Of a DNA stretch of 64,000 bases, positions 39,338 to 39,685 are shown piece after piece (within the stretch, counting starts at the first letter, position 1; each line of letters opens with the position of its first letter). The notes under the pieces are model-generated. The model was not told the DNA's origin. It was given only the letters and a program-made list of their open reading frames with translations, and did not search any database. The position numbers and the translations under genes are program-made. The stretch is from Olivibacter sitiensis DSM 17696 (GTDB lineage Bacteria; Bacteroidota; Bacteroidia; Sphingobacteriales; Sphingobacteriaceae), in assembly GCF_000427965.1 (NCBI RefSeq), contig NZ_ATZA01000001.1, positions 124,001-188,000 on the forward strand. The letters run 5' to 3'.

Positions 39338-39370
39338 TTGATAAAATTATAAATCTTATTGTTAGTTTTG
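39338..39370 (+). promoter_or_regulatory. Promoter-like pair in the 39.2-39.7 kb intergenic region
   Basis: TTG (39338-39340) and TAGTTTTG (39363-39370) are 22 nt apart. The expected start, near 39377, would make a transcript through the hairpin and small ORF that follow, towards the AsnC-type regulator. Confidence 0.45.
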
Positions 39371-39417
39371 CGAAACAAGTAGGATTATTGTTTTTAGTAT
39401 AATCGTTTGGTCAAGAT

Positions 39418-39489
39418 ATGGTAAAAAGAAGAAGCTCCTTTGGGAGAGGAGCTTCAACGCTAACCAATTATAAACCTATATTAAACTGA
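39418..39489 (+). CDS. Putative 23-residue small ORF overlapping a strong hairpin
   Basis: ATG at 39418 opens 23 codons (MVKRRSSFGRGASTLTNYK followed by PILN) ending in TGA at 39487-39489. It lies about 40 nt downstream of a promoter-like pair. Codons 6-13 lie in a 9-bp hairpin: GAAGCTCCT (39431-39439) and AGGAGCTTC (39447-39455), with a 7-nt loop and no T-run. A second, weaker hairpin follows (AAACAAG 39503-39509 with CTTGTTT 39517-39523). It could be a leader peptide of the regulator at 39686, a small RNA, or noncoding. Coding status is unproven. Confidence 0.3.
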   Translation: MVKRRSSFGRGASTLTNYKPILN

Positions 39490-39685
39490 GGGGCGAATCT
39501 AGAAACAAGCTTTCTACTTGTTTGTATTTAAAAGAGGATAATTTTGTTTTTAATGTTTTATTCCCTTTTGTTTGATACAAAATTAAAAAAAAATTACATT
39601 ACTTGTTAAAATTGTGTAAATATTTTTTTATTTTTATCAAAAAAGGCTGAAAGTTATTTTGTAATTACTATTTATTAAAAAAAAT

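Follow-up and report, generated by a model that had tools for sequence, protein, structure and literature searches.

The gap upstream of an Lrp/AsnC-type regulator in Olivibacter sitiensis DSM 17696 contains a 23-codon frame built into a hairpin, which raises the question of whether this DNA encodes a leader peptide or attenuator for the regulator, a new small protein, or a small RNA. The locus was analyzed within a stretch of 64,000 nucleotides (hereafter the window; contig NZ_ATZA01000001.1, positions 124,001 to 188,000). A sequence-only reading had pointed out three elements, all of which are present: the ATG frame at 39418-39489 (MVKRRSSFGRGASTLTNYKPILN, stop TGA), the 9-bp stem at 39431-39455, and a second hairpin at about 39503-39528. 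Its impression of a well-structured region was also borne out, since folding of 39372-39530 gave z values of -4.8 for the plus strand and -4.4 for the minus strand, and 0 of 200 shuffles was as good in either case. Because both strands fold better than their shuffles, folding alone is no guide to the strand. The promoter pair proposed on the plus strand near 39338 was absent among the 10 sites of a consensus scan. We found that the 23-codon frame and the 9-bp stem are the antisense of a small RNA gene that spans approximately 39572-39424 of the minus strand, in the order promoter box, variable 5' part, core, and terminator. The features are as follows.

39578-39585, minus strand: TAnnTTTG-type box TAATTTTG, fitting the Bacteroidota -7 box
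About 39571-39573, minus strand: predicted transcription start, placed from the box TAATTTTG
39494-39572, minus strand: variable 5' part of the RNA, from the fold of a 150-nt RNA; aligns poorly among orthologs
About 39503-39528, minus strand: AAACAAG/CTTGTTT hairpin within the 5' part of the RNA, from sequence and fold
39461-39478, minus strand: core TAGGTTTATAATTGGTTA, the proposed pairing region for susC leaders
To about 39493, minus strand: extension of the conserved block (CCCCTCAGTTTAATA)
39431-39455, minus strand: intrinsic terminator hairpin GAAGCTCCT-CTCCCAA-AGGAGCTTC, from the terminator scan and the covarying stems of the family
39424-39430, minus strand: T tract of the terminator and presumed 3' end of the RNA, from sequence and scan
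39418-39489, plus strand: 23-codon ATG frame, an antisense coincidence with an unconserved start codon
39686-40159, plus strand: divergent Lrp/AsnC-type regulator (PF01037, PF13404), opposite the RNA in 15 of 16 orthologous loci

We take TAnnTTTG to be the consensus of the Bacteroidota -7 box and on this basis read TAATTTTG as a promoter. The minus-strand terminator found by the scan consists of the 9-bp stem followed by TTCTTTTTAC, and this G+C-rich stem with its U tract, together with the hairpins and T runs of the family, has the form of an intrinsic (Rho-independent) terminator. The earlier suggestion of a small RNA was therefore right about the RNA and wrong about its strand, since the minus strand carries the U tract of the terminator, the core that is mostly unpaired, and the conserved box of the promoter. 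The neighboring genes of the window copy encode the Lrp/AsnC protein (PF01037) and a 5' nucleotidase (PF06941), and the copy may be under the control of the adjacent regulator.

When 60 relatives were searched with a 221-nt region, matches within the same genus (93-100% identity) were confined to about 39422-39509, and one 24-nt piece matched repeatedly, at many places per genome. These places share one layout on the strand opposite the frame: a TAnnTTTG box and, after a spacer whose length varies, TAGGTTTATAATTGGTTAG, then a hairpin and a T run. At the 16 orthologous loci, the box is always present, 64-107 nt upstream of the core and in invariant alignment columns, and in 15 of them the gene with the Lrp signature lies opposite the RNA at a distance of 267-321 nt. 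The coding frame is not conserved: an in-frame ATG occurs anywhere in only 5 of the 16 loci and at the window position in the window's own locus alone. Eleven orthologs have no in-frame ATG, and three same-genus loci lack any in-frame start codon (ATG, GTG, or TTG). Moreover, the stem varies across copies by paired, compensatory substitutions, which speaks against a small protein. Conservation in relatives, the check suggested by the earlier reading, decided between RNA and coding sequence. The plus-strand readings, whether a new small protein or an attenuator or leader peptide acting on the Lrp/AsnC gene, can point to the frame being open in the window and to the recurring peptide piece LTNYKP, which recurs because the DNA is kept; we regard them as ruled out by the unconserved frame (ATG in place in 1 of 16) and give them practically no weight. 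The RNA is moreover directed away from the Lrp gene.

Most likely, the element belongs to a family of short noncoding RNAs that is present in multiple copies in the Sphingobacteriaceae. The window's genome contains 7 exact cores (reversed control, 0), all with the same TAnnTTTG box upstream and terminator downstream; the short copies were modelled at 69 nt. Of 151 genomes from the same family, 97 contain the exact core, with a maximum of 19 copies in one genome (reversed control, 0). A scan of named genomes gave at least 120 matching stretches; among the 80 matches listed, nearly all were from Sphingobacterium, Mucilaginibacter, Parapedobacter, Olivibacter, Pedobacter, Arcticibacter, or related records. 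In a class-wide draw allowing at most one mismatch, 10 of 10 family genomes matched, compared with 2 of 285 others, and the hairpin architecture was absent from these two outsiders. The match in the genome G024 (genus g21) likewise had no hairpin, and the true copies of this genome were later recovered by profile. The family, its architecture, and its lineage are in this sense computational observations.

Of 219 distinct instances, 45 carry the TAnnTTTG box with a spacing of exactly 21 nt to the downstream core, and 51 are preceded by the 3' end of a tRNA. Downstream of the core, 174 of 178 cellular instances form a hairpin, as opposed to 36 in shuffled sequence, as do 38 of 41 viral instances, as opposed to 13; seven instances do not fold, two of which, in an archaeon and a Lachnospiraceae bin, are evidently chance matches. 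Covariation of the stem was counted by a script anchored on the loop motifs, as the covariance model of the alignment had no base pairs. In the two large loop classes, pairing was 92.5% (40 arm pairs) and 87.0% (27 arm pairs), against 53.7% and 49.5% for re-dealt arms, and the third class, of 7 arm pairs, showed no excess (0.768 observed, equal to 0.768 for the best shuffle). The core is mostly unpaired in the 44 promoter-driven copies (mean probability, 0.74), and it is predicted to be 0.55 unpaired in the long RNA of the window (150-nt fold). In family members, a mostly unpaired conserved block leads into an intrinsic terminator whose loop is usually C-rich. C-rich motifs pair with targets in some sibling sRNAs of the LhrC and Cia kind.

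Several arrangements of the element deviate from a single copy. A tandem array at G073:C14:260109-261633 holds five exact cores on one strand at a spacing of about 370-400 nt, and three loci of G024 (L479, L486, and L494) carry two tandem seed-like pieces (e.g., TATTATTGGTTAG then AATTGGTTAG) followed by one terminator. Near-exact complements of the core, with 1 and 2 mismatches, occur at G000:C34:77928-77945 and G000:C41:26259-26276, shortly past a TAnnTTTG box on the opposite strand and ahead of a hairpin; judging from this sequence arrangement, they could be sponges or targets. Hfq was found in none of the 21 genomes searched for it.

The exact core also occurs on 45 viral contigs, where many copies sit after genes or tRNAs. 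In IMGVR_UViG_2791354870_000002, at L213:8080-8325 on the minus strand, the element is immediately preceded by a permuted tmRNA (RF04321, 61.6 bits) and a tRNA-Lys, and tRNA-like genes to which ARAGORN assigned anticodons of only two bases are found near three other viral elements (L231:695-767, L243:2744-2816, and L244:5238-5310). On five viral contigs (L218, L245, L298, L299, and L300), the element is located a few hundred bases past two consecutive ORFs of about 470 and 495 amino acids, with little coding DNA in between; from their length and sequence, this pair appears to be terminase and portal genes. Near matches in Tenacibaculum phage JQ, Flavobacterium FpV4, Bacteroides B124-14, and Nonlabens P12024L lack the hairpin and were dismissed as chance, and a plasmid collection gave weak matches only.

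Because the FopS sRNAs of Bacteroides are reported to repress SusC mRNAs near the start codon (PMC11697453), we examined susC leaders here. The window's genome has 56 TIGR04056 matches, of which 55 leaders were used and one at a contig end was dropped; 180 genes preceded by 60 nt or more of free DNA served as background, and the start codon was set at the frame's first ATG, a choice that can be wrong. The first 30 leaders repeatedly contained TTAACCAATT-like strings directly before the ATG, which are the complement of the core. AACCAATT was present before the start codon in 10 of 55 susC leaders and in 1 of 180 background genes, and TTAACCA in 10 and 0, respectively. The shorter AACCA occurred in 25 of 55 susC leaders, being absent from the other 30, and in 9 of 180 background genes (25 versus 5 when limited to -45 to -1). 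In a position control that covered 30 of the 55 leaders, AACCA was found between -60 and -1 in 20 of 30 and in three neighboring 60-nt stretches in 2 to 4 of 30, so that the enrichment is confined to the 60 nt upstream of the start codon in this set. The complementarity extends over the start codon itself: the conserved 5' end of the block, UCAUAAUUU, is the complement of AAATT-ATG-A, and AAATTATGA, which spans the start codon, was found in 6 of 55 susC genes and in 0 of 180 others. The block UCAUAAUUUAGGUUUAUAAUUGGUUAG of most members is antisense to an idealized susC initiation region, CUAACCAAUUAUAAACCUAAAUU-AUG-A.

The mean energy of the predicted core-leader duplexes was -9.78 for susC and -7.33 for the background, and 0 of 200 shuffled cores was as good. 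The reversed core, however, reached -9.69 on susC leaders (for the longer block, -11.27 as against -12.59), and some background genes gave predicted duplexes that were equally strong. When the block was split into halves, the minima were -6.87 and -7.06 versus -6.37 and -6.61, not beyond all shuffles. Since the reversed core nearly equals the true core, energy alone is weak, and we place the weight on motif, position, and covariation.

The covariation comes from genera in which the core has changed. In genus g14, the core is GGTTTATATTTGGTTAG (AATTGG to ATTTGG), found exactly in 8 of 8 genomes searched, and the copies read have the same hairpin layout except at one place in the genome G110. 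Of 35 leaders from the g14 genome G017, none contains AACCAATT and 12 contain AACCAAAT, whereas 16 and 2, respectively, of the 90 leaders from the standard-core genomes G000 and G031 do (Fisher 1e-6 for leaders carrying either motif). Genus g8 has a weakly scoring relative (E 0.06), CATAGGTTTAGGTTAGTTTAGG followed by a hairpin, in 2 of 2 genomes searched, and AACCTAAAC was noted as the expected g8 motif before its leaders were inspected. The predicted AACCTAAA was found in 3 of 30 g8 leaders, 0 of 90 standard leaders, and 3 of 35 g14 leaders; CCTAAA, chosen after inspection, was found in 9, 1, and 3, respectively. Over the three variants, leaders pair better with the sRNA of their own genus, and 0 of 20000 label permutations was as good, although the core variants represent few lineages and paralogous leaders are non-independent. 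Leaders of genus g21 showed no clear pattern in the motif comparison. The leaders were sampled with the best hits first plus next-ranked ones within easy reach, and amounted to 35 of 53 hits for G031, 35 of 54 for G017, 30 of 56 for G011, 15 of 52 for G024, and 15 of 53 for G067. The complementarity near susC starts and the matched changes between genera were thus directly computed.

The SusC importers determine the diet of Bacteroidota, and their location at the cell surface may make them phage receptors. The reading we prefer, with a probability of about three in four, is that these multicopy sRNAs form a family repressing the translation of SusC in a FopS-like mode. The RNA would be transcribed from the minus strand, and its block would pair with the leaders and start codons of mRNAs for SusC/RagA-type outer-membrane importers. 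Such pairing would be expected to block translation initiation, the effect presumably being repressive, and many importers would be turned down together; the multiplicity of copies, including those in tRNA trailers, would increase the amount of the sRNA. A wider picture, which we hold tentatively and with rather less than even confidence, is a family-wide global antisense switch on importers, its block complementary to a generic susC start with the start codon itself, in which the sRNA and dozens of leaders change together with the divergence of genera, copies have their own promoters or use tRNA trailers, and phage copies reset the importer, and perhaps the receptor, repertoire of the host.

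Two other explanations dispense with antisense pairing. The conserved block might mainly bind a protein, as a sponge or assembly RNA, and its likeness to susC would then reflect a shared protein-binding or translation motif; many copies with a single invariant block would suit this, and a Bacteroides RRM protein is reported to bind the conserved part of FopS (PMC11697453). We nevertheless consider it improbable, as susC leaders hold the complement of the block rather than its own sequence, and leaders and block change together from genus to genus. Slightly less probable still is a terminator cassette without regulatory role, preceded by a conserved sequence, that would mark the 3' end or processing site of tRNAs, phage transcripts, and transcripts from stray promoters. 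The 51 instances behind a tRNA 3' end and the phage copies behind genes or tRNAs fit such a cassette, but all 7 copies in the window's genome stand behind a TAnnTTTG box, which 45 of the 219 instances have at an identical distance, and a terminator leaves the complementarity to susC starts unexplained.

No RNA already described in Rfam accounts for the element, a possibility ruled out because no family matched: at the gathering score, Rfam 15 gave 0 matches in the whole window and, at 18 loci of family members, only tRNAs and one tmRNA beside the elements. Within the literature text searched, a scope that excludes subscription papers and preprints, neither AGGTTTATAATTGG nor AACCAATTATAAAC was found, and the papers listed there for small RNAs of Sphingobacterium, Pedobacter, and Sphingobacteriaceae gave nothing on this family. 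The sRNA appears to have changed in step with many of its presumed targets, which opens one-to-many coevolution of sRNA and targets to direct testing; the copies borne by phages suggest exploitation of the importer circuit by viruses.

FopS established that sRNAs can control SusC importers in Bacteroides, and the present family would apply the same logic in another bacterial family. FopS is a family of paralogous sRNAs of about 65-70 nt in Bacteroides thetaiotaomicron, reported as conserved in Bacteroidaceae, with one 3'-UTR-derived member and one phage-borne copy (PMC11697453); GibS of the same species serves as a further comparison (PMC7366714). Like these, the present RNAs are multicopy, short, and preceded by a Bacteroidota promoter, each of the 7 copies in the window's genome having both box and terminator, and they have a conserved single-stranded pairing region in the 5' part with predicted targets at susC start codons. 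A block complementary to susC start regions, as described for FopS, was found here computationally, by enrichment, position control, and covariation. Unlike FopS of the Bacteroidaceae, the present family belongs to the Sphingobacteriaceae; its core, at one mismatch, is absent from 283 of 285 other class genomes, the other two lacking the architecture, and it has copies after tRNAs and an Lrp-linked long member. Several near-redundant copies that share a pairing region are also a feature of sibling sRNA families in other phyla, which have other targets. Examples named in the FopS paper (PMC11697453) are LhrC from Listeria and the Cia-dependent sRNAs found in streptococci. Most likely, the present family works like FopS with a conserved sequence of its own.
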